From positions 1 to 50,525 of the IMG/VR virus record IMGVR_UViG_3300048588_000030: a DNA stretch of 50,525 nucleotides, one strand, 5' to 3'. Made by a program: the position numbers and the translations under genes. The DNA comes from a virus. Shown here piece after piece: positions 5,852-50,525 of the stretch; within the stretch, counting starts at the first letter, position 1; every line of letters starts with the position of its first letter. The notes below the pieces were generated by a model. The model was given only the letters and a program-made list of their open reading frames with translations. It was not told the DNA's origin and did not search any database.

Positions 5852-6370
5852 TTAGCCCATGTCTACCATAATCACGTCAGTTAACCCTGACCTAAGCGCA
5901 GCACGTACCCACGTCATGCCGTGCTTAGGGTCAACGCAATAGCCGTAGGTCTTGCGGCCAGCACGTATAGCCCACCGTGCTTTGCTCTTGGCTAGTCCCT
6001 TGCCTTGCGTGAACTCCTCCCGCGTGGTAAGGAGCGATAGCACGTATACGTCCACGTCCGAGACAACAGCCGTCTTGCACTCAGGGTGCTTAGGCGTAGG
6101 CGCTAGCCGCATAGGATGCACGGCTAGCCCAAACGATAGCGGCCTCTGCACCTCTCCCCGTGCGTGCTTACGTACCGCGTTACTCTTGCGTGTCACTTTC
6201 CCCACGCTCAACGCTCTTCCCGTGCTGGTAGTGTGCGGCACCAGTCCCGGCCCATTGGGATTGCGTGCAAACATACGCGCCAATGACTGTAGTGCGCTAT
6301 TGCTTGCCCGCTCCCGCGCCACGCTATTCCGTGCGGCTGTCTCTCTAGCTATGCGCTTTACACTAGGCAT
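5852..6370 (-). CDS. Basic uncharacterised early protein
   Basis: A 172-residue, strongly basic protein (Arg/Lys/Ala-rich over the first 75 residues). The C-terminal half (TAVVSDVDVYVLSLLTTREEF onwards) looks like a small alpha/beta domain. The ATG at 6370 has GGAG about ten bases upstream. It is the first gene after the terminator at 6535-6570, so a promoter should lie in 6371-6534; TATACT at about 6430 on the minus strand is a weak -10 candidate. No family is recognised; nucleic-acid binding is plausible from charge alone. Confidence 0.6.
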   Translation of the reverse strand: MPSVKRIARETAARNSVARERASNSALQSLARMFARNPNGPGLVPHTTSTGRALSVGKVTRKSNAVRKHARGEVQRPLSFGLAVHPMRLAPTPKHPECKTAVVSDVDVYVLSLLTTREEFTQGKGLAKSKARWAIRAGRKTYGYCVDPKHGMTWVRAALRSGLTDVIMVDMG

Positions 6371-6384
6371 TGCTCAATCTCCAA

Positions 6385-6402
6385 TTGTTATACGTATAAC
6401 AA
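6385..6402. promoter_or_regulatory. Copy 4 of the palindrome, extended to a perfect 18-bp dyad
   Basis: TTGTTATACGTATAACAA is a perfect 18-bp palindrome, the longest of the five copies. It sits just upstream of the ribosome site of the gene starting at 6370, which is where a repressor or activator of that transcript would bind. Confidence 0.55.
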
Positions 6403-6534: not shown

Positions 6535-6570
6535 ACAAAAAAGCCCGGTAGAGCTTTCGCCCTACCGGGT
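6535..6570 (-). terminator. Rho-independent terminator
   Basis: On the minus strand an 8-bp GC-rich stem CCCGGTAG/CTACCGGG, with an inner paired GGGCGAAAGCTC element, is followed by CTTTTTTG. It lies 16 bases beyond the stop of the gene at 6586-7236 and should end that transcript, separating it from the genes at 6370 and below. Confidence 0.85.
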
Positions 6571-6585
6571 TAGTGTCGCCACGTT

Positions 6586-7236
6586 TTATGCTGCCATCTG
6601 TACCAGTTCGGCAACTGGATCAGCACTTGACGCTGCGGCAGTCGTGTCGTGATCACTTGCTGCCATGAGTGCCTTGACTGCTACCGTGATCGCGTCAAAT
6701 CGGCGTGCAGGTACGCTGCCATCCTTGATGCTCGCCGCAATGCTGGCAAGGTCGGCAAGGATCGCGGCACGTGCCTTATCCGCGTCCGTCATGGCGGCAG
6801 CTTTTGCCTTATCTTTTGCCTCTTTCACTGCCTTGTAGATGGCGCCGTAAGACGAATCAGCCGGCAGTTTAACCTTGAGTTCTATCGCGTCCGTCAAGGT
6901 AGACTTGGCCGTACGGTAGGAACCCGGCAGAACTGGCGAAGCCGCGCCAGTCTTGTCAGGTTTCCCGAGGATCACCGGGCAATCCTTCAGCAGGCCGGCC
7001 CGGTAATCGGACTCAACTTGCTCAAGCGCGCCGATCAATGCTGCCGGTGCCGGGTGCATGTTAAACAGCCGTGCTACCAGCACATAGGTACCCTCTTTCT
7101 TCTGCTTAGCGCTATCGGTCGCGCCTTTCGTTTCGTACCCTGCCCGGAACGTGGCAAGCGCCAGTTCGGCCAAAGTCTGCTGGCGTCCGGGTTCGCTTGT
7201 CTGAGCGGGTACTTTCGTTTGTCTGTTCTTGCTCAT
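6586..7236 (-). CDS. Leftward early protein under sigma-54-type promoters, function unknown
   Basis: A 216-residue protein with ATG at 7236 and AGAGG seven to eight bases upstream. It has its own strong terminator and lies downstream of three sigma-54-type promoter sequences, so it should form a single-gene transcript that can be made at high level. The protein is Ala- and Lys-rich and helical (for example AVKEAKDKAKAAAMTDADKA at about 136-155). The N-terminus is basic and Gln/Thr-rich. No enzyme motif, membrane segment or signal peptide is visible. I do not recognise a family. It could be a nucleic-acid-binding or host-takeover protein. Confidence 0.7.
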   Translation of the reverse strand: MSKNRQTKVPAQTSEPGRQQTLAELALATFRAGYETKGATDSAKQKKEGTYVLVARLFNMHPAPAALIGALEQVESDYRAGLLKDCPVILGKPDKTGAASPVLPGSYRTAKSTLTDAIELKVKLPADSSYGAIYKAVKEAKDKAKAAAMTDADKARAAILADLASIAASIKDGSVPARRFDAITVAVKALMAASDHDTTAAASSADPVAELVQMAA

Positions 7237-7352: not shown

Positions 7353-7366
7353 GTCATACGTATAAC
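7353..7366. promoter_or_regulatory. Copy 5 of the GTYATACGTATRAC palindrome
   Basis: GTCATACGTATAAC lies about 15-30 bases downstream of the expected start of transcription from the nearest sigma-54-type promoter and 117 bases before the gene at 7236. A protein bound here could act as a roadblock to that promoter. Confidence 0.5.
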
Positions 7367-7391: not shown

Positions 7392-7409
7392 GTGCAAGTA
7401 CCGTGCCAG
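7392..7409 (-). promoter_or_regulatory. Sigma-54-type promoter 1
   Basis: On the minus strand CTGGCACG-GTAC-TTGCA matches the sigma-54 consensus YTGGCACG-RNNN-TTGCW at every position, with the required spacing between the -24 GG and -12 GC. The expected start of transcription is near 7382, reading toward the gene at 7236. Confidence 0.75.
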
Positions 7410-7439
7410 CGTAGATTCAGCCTAGACTGTCCCCGTCGC

Positions 7440-7457
7440 GTGCAAGGATCGTGCCAA
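7440..7457 (-). promoter_or_regulatory. Sigma-54-type promoter 2
   Basis: On the minus strand TTGGCACG-ATCC-TTGCA is a perfect match to the sigma-54 consensus. It lies 48 bp upstream of promoter 1, with an expected start near 7430. Confidence 0.75.
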
Positions 7458-7478
7458 CGTGCCAGCGTGTGCCGTTGC

Positions 7479-7496
7479 GTGCAAGATCCGTGCCAA
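7479..7496 (-). promoter_or_regulatory. Sigma-54-type promoter 3
   Basis: On the minus strand TTGGCACG-GATC-TTGCA is a perfect match to the sigma-54 consensus. It lies 39 bp upstream of promoter 2, with an expected start near 7469. Confidence 0.75.
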
Positions 7497-7548: not shown

Positions 7549-7565
7549 TGCACCACTTTAGTGCG
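7549..7565. promoter_or_regulatory. Possible enhancer-binding (NtrC-type) site
   Basis: TGCACC-N5-AGTGCG matches the NtrC dyad TGCACC-N5-GGTGCA at 10 of 12 fixed positions. It lies about 87, 126 and 174 bp upstream of the three expected starts, within the usual range for enhancer-binding proteins. One half-site is imperfect, so this is tentative. Confidence 0.35.
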
Positions 7566-7884
7566 AGACCCCGTTTTGCCCCATTTTGGTGCGCCAACGC
7601 CGCATAGCGGCATTATGCGCATACCGCGGTGCAACATGCAGGGACCCCACCCACGGGTGGTGGTACGGAGGGGGGTCGCGCAAGTGAAATACACCCTCAA
7701 ATTATCTCCAAAAAATTATTACCTAGGATTGGGGGCTACGTACTCTGGGGTAGGGTATGTACCCTAAACCCTCACCAGACTGCGTATAATGCGTTTTAAG
7801 CAACTTTAACCCTAAACCAATGCCAAGGTAGCGGGTAGGGGGTATAAATACGTCCTAGACGATTATACGAGACGAGTGCCAATC

Positions 7885-8055: not shown

Positions 8056-8081
8056 TGTCACAAACGACGTTTTCAAACGTT
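8056..8081 (+). promoter_or_regulatory. Phage-type promoter A (putative ECF sigma promoter) for late genes
   Basis: TGTCACA, 15 bases, CGTT, preceded by T and followed by TATATTATA. The same two boxes with identical spacing occur upstream of the ssDNA-binding protein gene and of the primase gene. It faces the terminase and structural genes, 275 bp from the first. The TGTCACA/CGT pattern resembles promoters of some ECF sigma factors, and the phage encodes such a factor at 46637-47161. Confidence 0.65.
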
Positions 8082-8101
8082 TATATTATATATACTACGT
8101 G

Positions 8102-8254
8102 TTTTTATTATATATATATATAATATATTATATAATATATATTATAATATATATATAAATAATATAATAATTATATAATATAATAAATATATAATATATT
8201 AATAATATATATATATATAATATTATATATAATATATTATAATAATATAATATA
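8102..8254. other. 153-bp pure A/T tract; candidate replication origin/unwinding element
   Basis: Not one G or C occurs between 8102 and 8254, in a genome of about 50% GC. The sequence is made of irregular TATA/AATA repeats. It lies 20 bp downstream of phage-type promoter A, the same order as the T7 primary origin (promoter, then A/T-rich tract). Confidence 0.5.
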
Positions 8255-8323
8255 CTAAAATAATATAATATACTAAACACCGTCCCGGGCCAGTTACCAC
8301 TGTCCCGGGTATATAATAACCAT

Positions 8324-17235: not shown

Positions 17236-18990
17236 ATGGCAACGTACCCACCGAATTTTAACGATCAAGGCATCATAGACCTGTGTATAAACTCAGGCTA
17301 TCCTGTGACCGTGGATGGGTTCTATAACGCTATTAATGACGCTACTGGGAACACGAACGGTAGCATTGACGATATATGGAGACTGTACATCACGGATGTA
17401 CTTGGTTATACCTTTGTTGGGCAGCACCCAGCCCATTATGGGCTCTCTTTTGGGGACGGCCTGCCGAGTGGTGGTGTAGCGTTTCCAGAGCTTACAACGG
17501 TCACGTACACCCCCGGGGTGAATACAATAGAGGTAAATGGGATCTGCGGCGTTGACGGGAACTATTACGGTTACGTCACGACAACAACAGCTAATATAAC
17601 TTGGGGCTATAGTGATTTTCTGGATGATGAGGCCATTGGTCACGTTGGTTTCAGAGCCATCAGCATTCGACAAAATGCCTATATTGACTCGGCTACGCTC
17701 ACGCTGAAGTTTGCTGCTGTTGGAGTTAATTGGCCCGGTGGCAAGCTGTACGCAAAGAAGCTGGAACAAAATGCCATTGCTGTTCCTAACGACTCCGGCT
17801 ATGACTGGGTGTCGGGCGGCAAACTGACAACGGCGTATATCCAGATACCTTCAAGCCAGACAGCGACCACGGCCACCTTTGATGCGAAAGAGATATTGCT
17901 GGAGCTGATGGCTGCCGGCTGGGATGAGACAGACCACATTGTCCAATTCGTTTGTGTGGCTGATGCTGCGTGTCCTGACGACACCTATCTCTTAAGCCAC
18001 GACAAGCGCGAATCGACCACGGAGTTTAACCCAGCACTGGAAGTCGTCTATTACGAAAGCGCAAGCAACGCTGAAACCGCAGCCATCACAGATGGCTATG
18101 TCATCAACTATATGCCCGTCAGCGATGCAGACTTGGCAATAGCAAATCGCTTGCGGTTCGTGGTGCAGGACGATGCTGGCAGCCGCGAGGATGGTGTTGT
18201 GCTGGCTGGCGATTACGCGCCCTTCATCTCTACGACCGTCAACGCGCCCAGAAAAACAGTTGCGGTGGCTGGCGAGCTGGCCGAGCTTGATGCTGTTAAC
18301 TGGAATGTGCTGCCGCAGGCTAGATTCTTTGGTCGCAAATACTCCGGACACCCGGAACTGGCACAGGGGGCACTTCTATCCACTCTCAGCTACACCGATG
18401 GTTGGCAGTTCTTACCCAGAAACTATGACTACCTGTGGGCTGCCGCCATTGAGTTCGAGTCTACAGACGTTCTGAACTCTTGGTGGGATGTGTGGAACTA
18501 TAGAGGTTTCGGGGGCACCACATCGCAGTCTGCCATGTTCCTCACAGCAACCGGGACGACACTCGCTGGAATTGCAAATGCGAATGAGGTTGTCCTCGAC
18601 CTCCAAGTTGGCACACGGGTGCAGGTTACCGAGACAGGGATCACTGCTGGAGCAGGCCGCACTTTGAGGATCATGCTGTTTTGGGACCATGTGGCGTCAG
18701 CATGGTACTGGCGTTTGGTTGTCGAAGACGCTGCTGGCGCAGTAATCATCGACCGCAATAACAGCGCATCGGTAGCAAACACATGGGACCCCACATCTAT
18801 GACGGCACAGAACATCGACCGTAGGTGGCTGGTCGGGTTCAGATTGGATGGGGGCGCTCGAATGTTTGGGCACGCGATCATAGAATGGCGTCGGTCTGCT
18901 GCGAACATCTGGGAAGATTCCGCTGACTGGATGACGAAATCGTGGGTGCGCGGGATCAAGTCTCTCGATCCTCGGCTGATGACTCCGTAA
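17236..18990 (+). CDS. Putative receptor-binding or surface protein
   Basis: A 584-residue protein with ATG at 17236. The first 60 residues resemble a short virion-attachment segment, and the remainder is rich in Trp, Gly, Asp and beta strands. Two regions, about 95-270 and 310-584, look like beta-sandwich domains (for example YIDSATLTLKFAAVG and AWYWRLVVEDAAGAV). This fits a tail appendage or capsid-surface protein that binds glycans. I do not recognise a named family. It is the first gene of the 17.2-23.5 kb block, which separates head genes from tail-tube genes. Confidence 0.6.
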   Translation: MATYPPNFNDQGIIDLCINSGYPVTVDGFYNAINDATGNTNGSIDDIWRLYITDVLGYTFVGQHPAHYGLSFGDGLPSGGVAFPELTTVTYTPGVNTIEVNGICGVDGNYYGYVTTTTANITWGYSDFLDDEAIGHVGFRAISIRQNAYIDSATLTLKFAAVGVNWPGGKLYAKKLEQNAIAVPNDSGYDWVSGGKLTTAYIQIPSSQTATTATFDAKEILLELMAAGWDETDHIVQFVCVADAACPDDTYLLSHDKRESTTEFNPALEVVYYESASNAETAAITDGYVINYMPVSDADLAIANRLRFVVQDDAGSREDGVVLAGDYAPFISTTVNAPRKTVAVAGELAELDAVNWNVLPQARFFGRKYSGHPELAQGALLSTLSYTDGWQFLPRNYDYLWAAAIEFESTDVLNSWWDVWNYRGFGGTTSQSAMFLTATGTTLAGIANANEVVLDLQVGTRVQVTETGITAGAGRTLRIMLFWDHVASAWYWRLVVEDAAGAVIIDRNNSASVANTWDPTSMTAQNIDRRWLVGFRLDGGARMFGHAIIEWRRSAANIWEDSADWMTKSWVRGIKSLDPRLMTP

Positions 18991-46636: not shown

Positions 46637-47161
46637 TTAATAATTCTCAGCAACCATCCTGAGTTTAGCTATTGCTCGTGACAGCAACTGCCGGGAATTA
46701 TCCTCACTTACCCCCAAACGTGTAGCTATCTCCGAGAAACTTGCTCCGTTGGCGTGCATGAAGTACACCGCCACCTGCTGCGGTGCAAGGTCGTTTACCG
46801 CTTGCATTATGGCTGCTTTCTGCTGCTCTGCAGCTAGGATGTCTTCTGGAGAATCCAACGAAGTGCCTACCGAGTACTCAACTAACAACTCGTCCCCTGC
46901 ATCCGTAACCTCCAACTCTAGGTGCCTGCCAATGTCCCGGCTAATGCGGCGGAGTACGTCAACACTCGCATTTGTAGCCATTCGACGAGCTATTCGCAGC
47001 AGTTCGTCATCAGAACCAGTAAAATCGTGGTATCTTTGCCACACTTTTACCAAAACTTCCTGTGCTACATCCTGAGCATCCGCCCTTTCTGGAAGAATCC
47101 CCGTGGAAACAGCCAACGCTGCATCGTGGCACGCCCATAGCTGCTTAGAATCTAGTGCCAT
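46637..47161 (-). CDS. ECF-type sigma factor
   Basis: A 174-residue sigma factor with region 2 (DAQDVAQEVLVKVWQRYHDF, residues about 28-47) and a C-terminal region 4 helix-turn-helix (FSEIATRLGVSEDNSRQLLSRAI, about 142-165), with no region 1 or 3: the ECF build. It should redirect host RNA polymerase to phage promoters; phiEco32 also encodes an ECF factor for its later genes. The gene lies directly downstream of the ATP-grasp gene. GAGGAT precedes the ATG. Promoters A-C are likely targets. Confidence 0.85.
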   Translation of the reverse strand: MALDSKQLWACHDAALAVSTGILPERADAQDVAQEVLVKVWQRYHDFTGSDDELLRIARRMATNASVDVLRRISRDIGRHLELEVTDAGDELLVEYSVGTSLDSPEDILAAEQQKAAIMQAVNDLAPQQVAVYFMHANGASFSEIATRLGVSEDNSRQLLSRAIAKLRMVAENY

Positions 47162-47164
47162 ATG

Positions 47165-47959
47165 TCAATATCCTCGTGATGCTCGACGGTACATTTCAGC
47201 CCCAAATTCCCGAATATAGGTACTCAGAGTCGTTCCAGTAAGGCCCGGTGCGGTGTTAACCTCGTACACAGTCGCTTGTTGGATGTTCTCCGTCCATCCA
47301 ACGTCTACTGCGCCGAAGTCTAGCCCAAGTGCAGCCACTGCTGCTATGGATTGGTCTATGACATCGCGTGGAGGAGCGATCCCAGCACGACCAAATACCC
47401 ACCCGTTATCATAGTTACGCACCATATTGCGAGTCTCGGGGTCACCCAAAAATTCACCAGATCTTCGCATCTTTTTCTGCACATCGATGACACGTCCTTG
47501 CATGACGTGTACACGGTACTCGTCCTTCTTAGGCACATAGCGAACATAAAGCGGAAGCCCCTCCCTGACATCTTCTGGTCGTTTATAGATCTCAATTCCA
47601 CGTCCTGAACTGGAACGGAGTAGTCGCCGGCCAAAAACTATACGTTTTCGTGCCCACTTTCGGGCAACATTAACGTCCAAAGTATATTTTGGAATTTTTA
47701 TGCCCGCGGAATTAAGCAGCTCGAACGCCTTGAGCTTGTTACTGGCAAGTTTCACAGCACTTGGAGCGTTCAGCACGTACCCGCACCGCATTGCCCACGA
47801 CTCCGGTAGGGCAGACGAGCCCCAATTTACGATAGCATCACTGCCCCTAGGCACATAGGACGACTCCTCTGGTGCTCGCAATCGCTTAATCCTAAGCCCA
47901 CGACTTAGCTTTCTGGCACTGTCACTAAAGTAATTATACGCGTACAGCCGCCCTCGCAT
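47165..47959 (-). CDS. ATP-grasp amide ligase
   Basis: A 264-residue protein of the ATP-grasp superfamily, which activates a carboxylate as an acyl phosphate and joins it to an amine. Visible features are SNKLKAFELLNSAGIKIPKYT (about 73-93), an RSSSGRGIEIY loop (116-126), RYVPKKDEYRVHVMQG (140-155) and the metal-binding end GAVDVGW and VYEVNTAPG (231-239). ATG 47959 has GGAGGTG upstream; a GTG seven codons earlier is possible. It overlaps the amidotransferase gene by 26 bases. In phiEco32-type islands ATP-grasp proteins add further amide bonds to the same product. Confidence 0.85.
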   Translation of the reverse strand: MRGRLYAYNYFSDSARKLSRGLRIKRLRAPEESSYVPRGSDAIVNWGSSALPESWAMRCGYVLNAPSAVKLASNKLKAFELLNSAGIKIPKYTLDVNVARKWARKRIVFGRRLLRSSSGRGIEIYKRPEDVREGLPLYVRYVPKKDEYRVHVMQGRVIDVQKKMRRSGEFLGDPETRNMVRNYDNGWVFGRAGIAPPRDVIDQSIAAVAALGLDFGAVDVGWTENIQQATVYEVNTAPGLTGTTLSTYIREFGAEMYRRASRGY

Positions 47960-49637
47960 TAGACACCTCCATAGTTTCACTACATCCGCAATTAGCTACG
48001 TGCTCATTTCCTATCATCCGATATGATACAGCGTTAGCCATAGCAAACGTGATAGGCTGCCCACAGTCATAGCACCCACCCTTAGTCAGGTCAAGGAATC
48101 TCTGTGCTGATACCTTTGTGTTATACAGTCCCGGATAAACGAAGCCATCGACCCCGACATACGCCTTCTGTCTATTCTCTGTCGATATACTGTCAACTAA
48201 CTCTGTTGCGCTTGTGCAACGCGGCCCCCCTATCTGCACACTAGCCACGTCGTACGCGTCATCATCAGCATCATCGGTATCTACACCACTGGCATCAATG
48301 TCCTCCCCCTCATATAGCCACAAAGCCTCCTCCCCATGCTCATATGTCGGAACAAAGTCATCCGGCACCTTAGTCGATATCAGGCGACATATGACCTCGA
48401 CCTTTGTATCATCAAGTACCCGCACGCCTATTGGGGCGACCTCCCACACGTGGTCCTTGACTACCCACTGTCCCGGCTCAGCCTTGCCCAAACCTAACAG
48501 GGTGCTATCCAGTCCGTGCAAAGAAGCCTCGACTTGTGCGCACCCTAACTCCCCGGTCAAGCGAGCTATAGTGCGCCCGTTTCTCCTAGTAGAGTGCACT
48601 TGCAGTGGTACGAACAACATTCGATCATCGGGAGTGAGCGACCAATCCATTAACAACTCCAGCATACTATCAGGTATCTTCTTTTGGCGCTGCTCTGGTG
48701 CAGTAGTCGGCGTCACCTCTGTAGTAGGTTGCGCGCTGGGTGGTGTAATCACCGCTGGACGCTCGATGGGTTGCCGTCCCGGCCTGTAGTCTGCGCTATC
48801 ATCATCACAGTAAGATCCGTATGCGTCGTCATAGGCATGGGCCCACTGAGCATACGCCGAAGTTGCGCCACTGTAAGTCGTGTTGTATGTACAACGCTTA
48901 AGTTCAAGTTTGGTCATCTCCGGGGTAATAGTACTTGCTGCGTGGTGCCAGCGCATGAGTACGCCGGGATCAGGCTGAAAATACGTGTCAATGGTAATGC
49001 GAATTCGAGATGCCAACCATCGCAGCATTTCAAACTCAGAGGCGATGTACAGGGTGTTGCTGACACGAGATACCCCAAGGTGCAACGGCCGCTCACTATT
49101 GCGTATCAGATTGATGTACCCACTCCTAGAGTCGTACCACACCAGAGCAAACGCTCCCTCAATCTCCTTGATAACATCCTCTGGCGTGCCCTCATCCAGT
49201 GCGTGAGCTATGTAGTGACTGTCCACTTCAGCAGACTTGGACGAAAGCTTGTTGTGATTATGTATTGTTCCATTGTGAACAAGTGTGATAGCTCCAGATA
49301 TGAACGGGTGCGTGTTATCTGTCGTAGCCCGGCCTTTAGTTGCTGCCCTATTATGCCCAACCGCAGCAAACAAACTTGGCACTGTGCTCATGAAGCCCTT
49401 GGCTGCCGCATCGGCTAGAAACGCAGGGCCGGGCGCGGCCATACGTGCCCAACTAGCCTTTGGCACAGCAACTGAGTGCCGCTCCGCACTCGACGTGTAC
49501 GGCGGTCGCATTACACCAAATATCCCAGTGCCGTCTCTGCCGCGCAACGTGCCCGCAAACATAGCTTGTTCCAAGAAGCTTCGCTTATCTGCTGGGTGCA
49601 TAGCTGATGTAGTAATCACTCCAAATATTCCGCACAT
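47934..49637 (-). CDS. Class II glutamine amidotransferase with extra C-terminal domain
   Basis: A 567-residue protein beginning MCGIFG, with the N-terminal nucleophile Cys2 of class II (Ntn-type) amidotransferases. Conserved stretches follow: GHNRAATKGR (about 113-122), LVHNGTIHNH and VDSHYIAHAL. The domain ends near residue 240. The next 330 residues are unlike the synthase domains of asparagine synthetase or GlmS. They include a Pro/Thr-rich linker, a beta-rich region and a C-terminal Cys cluster (CYDCGQ, CGCSE) that may bind zinc. Family enzymes release ammonia from glutamine for an amide-forming partner, here probably the ATP-grasp or amidoligase enzymes next to it. Confidence 0.85.
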   Translation of the reverse strand: MCGIFGVITTSAMHPADKRSFLEQAMFAGTLRGRDGTGIFGVMRPPYTSSAERHSVAVPKASWARMAAPGPAFLADAAAKGFMSTVPSLFAAVGHNRAATKGRATTDNTHPFISGAITLVHNGTIHNHNKLSSKSAEVDSHYIAHALDEGTPEDVIKEIEGAFALVWYDSRSGYINLIRNSERPLHLGVSRVSNTLYIASEFEMLRWLASRIRITIDTYFQPDPGVLMRWHHAASTITPEMTKLELKRCTYNTTYSGATSAYAQWAHAYDDAYGSYCDDDSADYRPGRQPIERPAVITPPSAQPTTEVTPTTAPEQRQKKIPDSMLELLMDWSLTPDDRMLFVPLQVHSTRRNGRTIARLTGELGCAQVEASLHGLDSTLLGLGKAEPGQWVVKDHVWEVAPIGVRVLDDTKVEVICRLISTKVPDDFVPTYEHGEEALWLYEGEDIDASGVDTDDADDDAYDVASVQIGGPRCTSATELVDSISTENRQKAYVGVDGFVYPGLYNTKVSAQRFLDLTKGGCYDCGQPITFAMANAVSYRMIGNEHVANCGCSETMEVSNARAAVRV

Positions 49638-50525
49638 TAAAACTCGTCCTCCTCAGTAGATTCATCGTTATCGTACTCTTCGTCATTGTACTCAATGTAC
49701 TCTTCATTATACCCCTCATCGTACTCCTGAACTTGCGTGAAAGTGGCCGTATCCTCTTGCGGCCTACGGAACGTATTCAAAAGCTCCCGAAAGTCAACTG
49801 GGCTATCAGCTCGTGCCGGAGCCGCACTAACTTTCTGATGCAAATTGCCGAAGCGCCACTTGAACGTGTCTGGTGATGGCGCTGGAGTATTGCCTAGAAG
49901 AATAGCTATAGAAGTGGGGATGTCGTACTCAAGCAACCACTCAACCTCCAACACAGACGACAGATTAGTGCGTACTGGCGTCGCATTGAACAGGCTTGGA
50001 ATGAGGCTTCGCACCACACTATCGACACTCCTCGTACGCAACTTGAGCAGTAGGTCGTCTGGAGATACGTCTCGTGAGTTGTGCATAAGCTCGTCAATAA
50101 CAGATAGCCACAGTCTTGCCTGTCCTACGTTGTCCCAAAGAGGTGCGTGACGGAACTCCAGCGTTCCGAACTTATGAATAGCCCCCAAGTTGAGTGCGCT
50201 GTACTTCTGAAAGTTATCCCACGCACCGCACCCACGCAGTGCACGGCTTAGCTGCTTGAGCGGAAGGTTAGCTCGGTAGAATGGTATGCAGTATATGTTC
50301 TCCTCTCGATCAGTTCCGCACATAGAGAATAGGATAGGCTCCACTAAACAGTACGCTGCCACGATATTGCGTACGCTATTCGGTGTTTCCAGTTGTACGT
50401 TAGCGTGCACGTGCATTGATGTTCGTATGCTTGAGGTGAACCCGTACGTATACCGCTCAGCGTAGAGCGCATCAAGCATGGAGTGTGCTTGCGTGCGCAT
50501 GACAGGACCGGCCAAGAACTCTATT
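49637..50525 (-). CDS. COOH-NH2 ligase (amidoligase, type 1-like), C-terminal part
   Basis: The open frame enters the window at 50525 and runs to 49637, overlapping the amidotransferase start (TAATG). Its first residues, IEFLAGPVMRTQ, continue a GIEF-type motif, and RTSMHVHANVQLE and EFRHAPLWDN follow. This is the pattern of glutamine synthetase-like amidoligases. The 38 N-terminal residues are encoded at 115-1. The 30 C-terminal residues form a very acidic tail. The sequence between HTTAY and IEF is absent from the window; it should hold the Asp-Gly-Ser-Leu-Arg-type stretch. It is the second amidoligase of the island and is probably full-length in the phage. Confidence 0.75.
   Translation of the reverse strand, partial: IEFLAGPVMRTQAHSMLDALYAERYTYGFTSSIRTSMHVHANVQLETPNSVRNIVAAYCLVEPILFSMCGTDREENIYCIPFYRANLPLKQLSRALRGCGAWDNFQKYSALNLGAIHKFGTLEFRHAPLWDNVGQARLWLSVIDELMHNSRDVSPDDLLLKLRTRSVDSVVRSLIPSLFNATPVRTNLSSVLEVEWLLEYDIPTSIAILLGNTPAPSPDTFKWRFGNLHQKVSAAPARADSPVDFRELLNTFRRPQEDTATFTQVQEYDEGYNEEYIEYNDEEYDNDESTEEDEF

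Follow-up and report, generated by a model that had tools for sequence, protein, structure and literature searches.

A putative NtrC/sigma-54 promoter array ahead of a single gene in a probable Zobellviridae phage

Background

Phages are mostly thought to start transcription from housekeeping promoters or with a polymerase of their own, and bacteria normally use sigma-54 promoters only on demand. The mechanism of sigma-54 and NtrC is itself established, and a sigma-54 transcript is expected to begin about 12 bp past the GC of the promoter. The published NtrC box is TGCACCAnnnTGGTGCA (PMC8743547); in Escherichia coli, the glnA boxes lie at about -90 and -140, and at least 70 bp is required (PMC7408454), while in Salmonella low glutamine is the signal (PMC4987338). 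Among phages, the use of host PhoB by cyanophage has been shown, with gel shifts (PMC10976474), and NtcA control in cyanophages is a prediction (PMC3037559).

The locus described here resembles the NtrC/sigma-54 promoters of enteric glnA, glnK and astC in its -24/-12 consensus, its 17-bp boxes and its enhancer distance. Unlike them, the array is phage-borne, combines three putative promoters with one enhancer pair, and precedes a target gene of unknown function.

Results

Gene layout and affiliation of the virus

The window (i.e., the whole stretch of DNA analysed) is a single virus record of 50,525 bp. The leftward genes extend from 7236 down to 102 and continue from 50515 to 36544; the rightward ones, among them the genes for terminase, portal, capsid and endolysin, occupy 8356 to 36422. 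The divergent blocks are separated by a 1.1-kb gap, inside which the promoter/enhancer region sits. The gap also holds the following feature:

8080 to 8280, no strand: A+T tract, about 200 bp consisting almost entirely of A and T, lying between the two divergent blocks

This tract is possibly an origin of replication. Contigs of relatives break there, and the related phage G003 also carries a DnaA-box-like TTATCCACA close by.

The TerL protein shares 50-59% identity with those of ICP2, ICBM1-3 and CRP-5 (Zobellviridae; Lentibacter phages are among the matches), and the divergent early/late layout is that of Vibrio phage ICP2 and other Zobellviridae. With a related terminase and this layout both present, the virus is probably a Zobellviridae phage, as judged without a tree. 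In ICP2, annotated sigma-70-type promoters occupy the region corresponding to the array. By analogy of gene content and layout, the leftward block likely comprises the early genes, the timing being inferred. The window encodes a family A DNA polymerase, a DnaB-like helicase, a primase and a sigma-70-family factor; neither an RNA polymerase gene nor an integrase was found among the genes examined, although not every ORF was searched.

Several further observations concern the leftward block. The sigma-70-family factor (46637-47161, minus strand) has regions 2 and 4 and an ECF-like size, with a homologue in G003 (55%) and almost none in cultured phages. The minus-strand segments 47165-50515 and 1106-2541 carry genes for a glutamine amidotransferase, an ATP-grasp protein (below cut-off), a phiEco32-type COOH-NH2 ligase and a gamma-glutamyl cyclotransferase. 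This glutamine-using amide-ligase set is suggestive near a putatively glutamine-linked promoter, but a connection is not shown. As the ends of the record (1-113 and 49637-50515) fall inside a ligase-like gene and have no repeat in common, the genome is probably near complete and not closed.

Three exact sigma-54 sites

Three sites in the gap match the sigma-54 consensus exactly:

7480 to 7496, minus strand: putative sigma-54 promoter P1, TTGGCACGGATCTTGCA, exact consensus, predicted start about 7469
7441 to 7457, minus strand: putative sigma-54 promoter P2, TTGGCACGATCCTTGCA, exact consensus, predicted start about 7430
7393 to 7409, minus strand: putative sigma-54 promoter P3, CTGGCACGGTACTTGCA, exact consensus, predicted start about 7382

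The pattern TGGCACGN4TTGC has exactly three matches, all on the minus strand (7481-7495, 7442-7456 and 7394-7408) with start-to-start spacings of 39 and 48 bp, and no further exact copy occurs on either strand of the whole window, in which the reversed pattern, used as a control, has 0 matches. All three also fit the longer pattern YTGGCACGRNNNTTGCW and the sigma-54 criterion TGGCAC-N5-TTGC, which places GG and GC 10 bp apart. Across 400 simulated sequences of 50.5 kb (order-1 to order-3), perfect 17-mers averaged 0.0025 (order-1) to 0.015 (order-3) and never exceeded 1; on this basis, chance was rejected as the origin of the three exact sites. Relaxing the pattern to two mismatches leaves it no more frequent than chance predicts (21 vs 17.5); thus, the signal rests wholly on the exact copies. 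The original prediction had claimed three perfect minus-strand sites 48 and 39 bp apart, the absence of any other perfect copy, and the rarity of such a triplet by chance; an exact pattern search, covering both strands, and the simulation upheld all three claims. The sites and their geometry are shown, while promoter activity is inferred.

No sigma-70 promoter above chance was found near the region. That the sites serve as promoters for a sigma-70-family factor of the phage itself is all but excluded. Such a factor is encoded in both the window and G003, but the motif matches the sigma-54 consensus exactly and is absent ahead of the late genes. Three extra GGCACG half-sites (7463, 7336 and 7272), on the same strand as the promoters, are not explained by sigma-54 promoters alone.

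NtrC-type boxes upstream of the sites

Two 17-bp inverted repeats lie 52-97 bp farther upstream than the sigma-54 sites:

7549 to 7565, no strand: NtrC-type box A, TGCACCACTTTAGTGCG (minus strand CGCACTAAAGTGGTGCA), 2 mismatches to the published box
7577 to 7593, no strand: NtrC-type box B, TGCCCCATTTTGGTGCG, 2 mismatches to the published box, 28 bp from box A

Both boxes are imperfect. They are nevertheless the sole matches within 2 mismatches in 50.5 kb, where simulation predicts 0.28-0.35. Relative to the predicted starts, the box centres lie at -88/-116 (P1), -127/-155 (P2) and -175/-203 (P3). The arrangement meets the description of an NtrC-activated promoter (a 17-bp box, mostly present twice, no less than 70 bp ahead of the start), and the distances fall in the range known for glnA (PMC7408454), which supports reading the boxes as enhancers; binding by NtrC is inferred.

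A transcription unit of one gene

The predicted starts lie 146-233 bp before the ATG of the first leftward gene, which is followed by a terminator:

6586 to 7236, minus strand: target gene, 216 aa, no known family, predicted all-helical, with a G003 homologue of 27% identity
6537 to 6570, minus strand: intrinsic terminator, hairpin 6544-6569 followed by CTTTTTTG, fold z-score -5.5

With promoters before the gene and a terminator after it, the transcription unit would consist of one gene, and this transcript likely heads the leftward block. The single gene and the terminator are shown. A structure model of the 216-aa protein predicts an all-helical fold (mean pLDDT 67), and no fold match was found for it. 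One-sequence and two-sequence searches of IMG/VR, GTDB genomes and phage records found no homologue; the sole one known surfaced by direct reading of the relative G003.

Palindromes were also observed nearby: TTATACGTATAA at 6388-6399, ahead of the gene at 5852-6370, and a partial copy, ATACGTAT, at 7356-7363, below the promoters. Palindromes of the GTAACACGTGTTAC type occupy similar places in G003. They might be operators of a phage regulator.

Conservation in terminase relatives

The related phage G003 is 50,069 bp long (contig L088 is its last 20 kb). Its homologue of the target gene is preceded by one sigma-54 site and by a pair of NtrC-like boxes, centred at -117 and -135, one of which has a single mismatch; a terminator lies behind that homologue (L088, about 18375-18445). 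In a comparison of the upstream regions, the best-matching 26-mer (23/26) contains box A, and the sigma-54 site is among the next-best (20/26). A further conserved block lies beyond the boxes:

7685 to 7726, minus strand: second block conserved with G003, which holds TGGCATTTCCCTTGC; degenerate in the window (GTGTATTTCACTTGC)

Conservation of the elements in a related phage is therefore shown. The copy number of three is not conserved, as G003 has one site.

More distant relatives also combine NtrC boxes with sigma-54-like sites. In L157 (TerL 66%), a zero-mismatch box (Y/R form of the consensus) is flanked by two sigma-54 sites, and in ctOsX528 (a spring podovirus, MW202697; TerL 54%), a TGGCATN5TTGC site is preceded by two boxes at a distance of about 230 bp. 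A box/sigma-54 pair among the scanned loci of terminase relatives was found in the window and G003 only. The stretches examined of three cultured Zobellviridae, ICP2 (40 of 50 kb), MEP401 and CRP-5, contain no sigma-54 plus NtrC array, and within that scope the trait is patchy.

Similar arrays in other viral contigs

Scans of IMG/VR for an NtrC box with a sigma-54 promoter gave 33 and 36 stretches. Some resemble host glnK-type DNA; many others come from phages and carry genes for terminase, portal, capsid and polymerase. The latter belong chiefly to one podovirus group, unrelated to the window by terminase (hereafter the second podovirus group), and several of these contigs place the elements between divergent gene blocks. 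In contigs picked by an NtrC box and a sigma-54 core, bases left free by the pattern follow both the NtrC and the sigma-54 consensus (NtrC A7, 0.76 and 0.62; NtrC T11, 0.90 and 0.66; sigma-54 G, 0.76 and 0.69; 0.25 expected). The reversed order of elements occurred in 31 contigs, compared with 36 in forward order, with equally good boxes; the reversed scan was rejected as a null, since real boxes occur in both orders. As the two orders are about equally frequent, raw pair counts have no value as proof, and the order of the elements does not decide the matter.

Searching IMG/VR for sigma-54 sites in tandem gave at least 120 stretches, with the free G present in 68% (25% expected); about half of the sites fall within open frames of at least 100 aa. 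Because all these contigs were selected by motif, they are evidence of recurrence, not of frequency. Among contigs from this second group that were sampled without regard to motif (L311-L317), none has an NtrC box or a convincing sigma-54 site; most of them are short or start near the terminase, and few cover the control region.

Two further kinds of array were observed. Contig L116 (3064-4099) has at least 10 sigma-54-like sites on one strand and three NtrC-like boxes, five of the sites being 17-19 bp apart, too dense for separate promoters. In L200, L206, L216 and L224, sigma-54-like sites occur in threes or fours at a spacing of 46-47 bp, about 400 bp ahead of a conserved small gene preceding the terminase.

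Three rival explanations can be weighed against these data. The first holds that the sites are sigma-54 promoters activated by another enhancer-binding protein, the boxes being chance matches or another protein's sites. In its favour, of the 87 tandem pairs of sigma-54 sites from other viral contigs, just 3 are preceded by an NtrC-like box at 350 bp or less; against it, the boxes are the window's sole matches, stand at a glnA-like distance and form the best-conserved upstream part. This explanation is unlikely.

The second, that the sites lie near an AT-rich origin and bind a replication or regulatory protein of the phage, as iterons or operators do, seems very unlikely. The direct repeats are close to an AT-rich tract in a divergent region, the extra half-sites are present, conservation extends beyond the consensus (CTTGCAC in all copies), and the L116 spacing is too tight for separate promoters. 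However, the copies differ mainly where sigma-54 tolerates variation, the spacing is irregular (48 and 39 bp), G003 has a single copy, all sites point at the 216-aa gene, and NtrC boxes lie upstream.

The third is that the array is a decoy, holding sigma-54 polymerase or NtrC and blunting host stress responses with little transcription. Sigma-54 polymerase does stay closed on promoters without an activator, and other phages have dense arrays; however, the orientation, gene distance, enhancer boxes and terminator suit a working transcription unit, and we hold this, too, to be very unlikely.

Discussion

The favoured reading is that the three sites and the boxes are likely NtrC/sigma-54 nitrogen-starvation promoters of a one-gene transcript, and that the virus probably turns on the 216-aa gene when its host is short of nitrogen. 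Activity, binding and nitrogen dependence are inferred, there being no expression data, and host rpoN and ntrC are assumed, the host being unidentified. In an infected cell low in nitrogen (low glutamine), host NtrC would be phosphorylated and would bind the box pair at 7549-7593. The bound NtrC would loop to host RNA polymerase with sigma-54 waiting at P1-P3, one pair serving all three, and its ATP hydrolysis would open the polymerase complex. The predicted result is a short transcript of the gene at 6586-7236 alone, stopping at 6537-6570. Although the mechanism is established in bacteria, its operation in this phage is an inference. The product may help or delay infection of starved cells; either way is inferred, and the choice is undecided.

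The remaining claims of the original prediction fared as follows. That the sites face the gene at 6586-7236 and that a terminator at 6535-6570 limits the unit to one gene both held, and a lytic lifestyle is plausible. The sigma-54 reading is supported by two NtrC-type boxes at the right distance, which had been overlooked, and by the conservation of both elements in G003. Among the host signals proposed (nitrogen, phage shock and motility), the boxes favour nitrogen. The claim that such promoters are very rare in phages is doubtful, because many IMG/VR phage contigs have tandem sigma-54 sites, some with NtrC boxes.

The scans suggest that the arrangement is not a lone oddity. A bolder hypothesis, as likely to fail as to hold, is that nitrogen sensing through sigma-54 and NtrC is recurrent in environmental podoviruses and has arisen more than once, with the divergent control regions of several lineages carrying such arrays and further lineages perhaps using sigma-54 arrays alone to read different host signals.

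The open-access literature searched, which excludes most subscription journals, yielded no account of a lytic phage with NtrC/sigma-54 promoters. What comes nearest in print is the control of cyanophage genes by two host regulators, PhoB, for which it has been shown, and NtcA, for which it is predicted. PhoB control (P-SSM2 pstS; S-PM2d, PMC10976474) likewise involves a lytic phage with its own promoter sites for a host two-component nutrient regulator, but concerns phosphate and cyanobacteria, with no sigma-54 promoters described, whereas the window points to nitrogen. The predicted NtcA sites of T4-like cyanophages (PMC3037559; PMC8115048) likewise belong to promoters predicted to track host nitrogen status, but these are of the sigma-70 type and scattered, 1-16 per genome, whereas the window has one array before a single gene. 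Phage use of host nutrient regulators is thus already known or predicted, and the NtrC/sigma-54 version is likely new; if true, the expression of phage genes would depend on how well the host is fed, in this case outside cyanobacteria and by means of different machinery.
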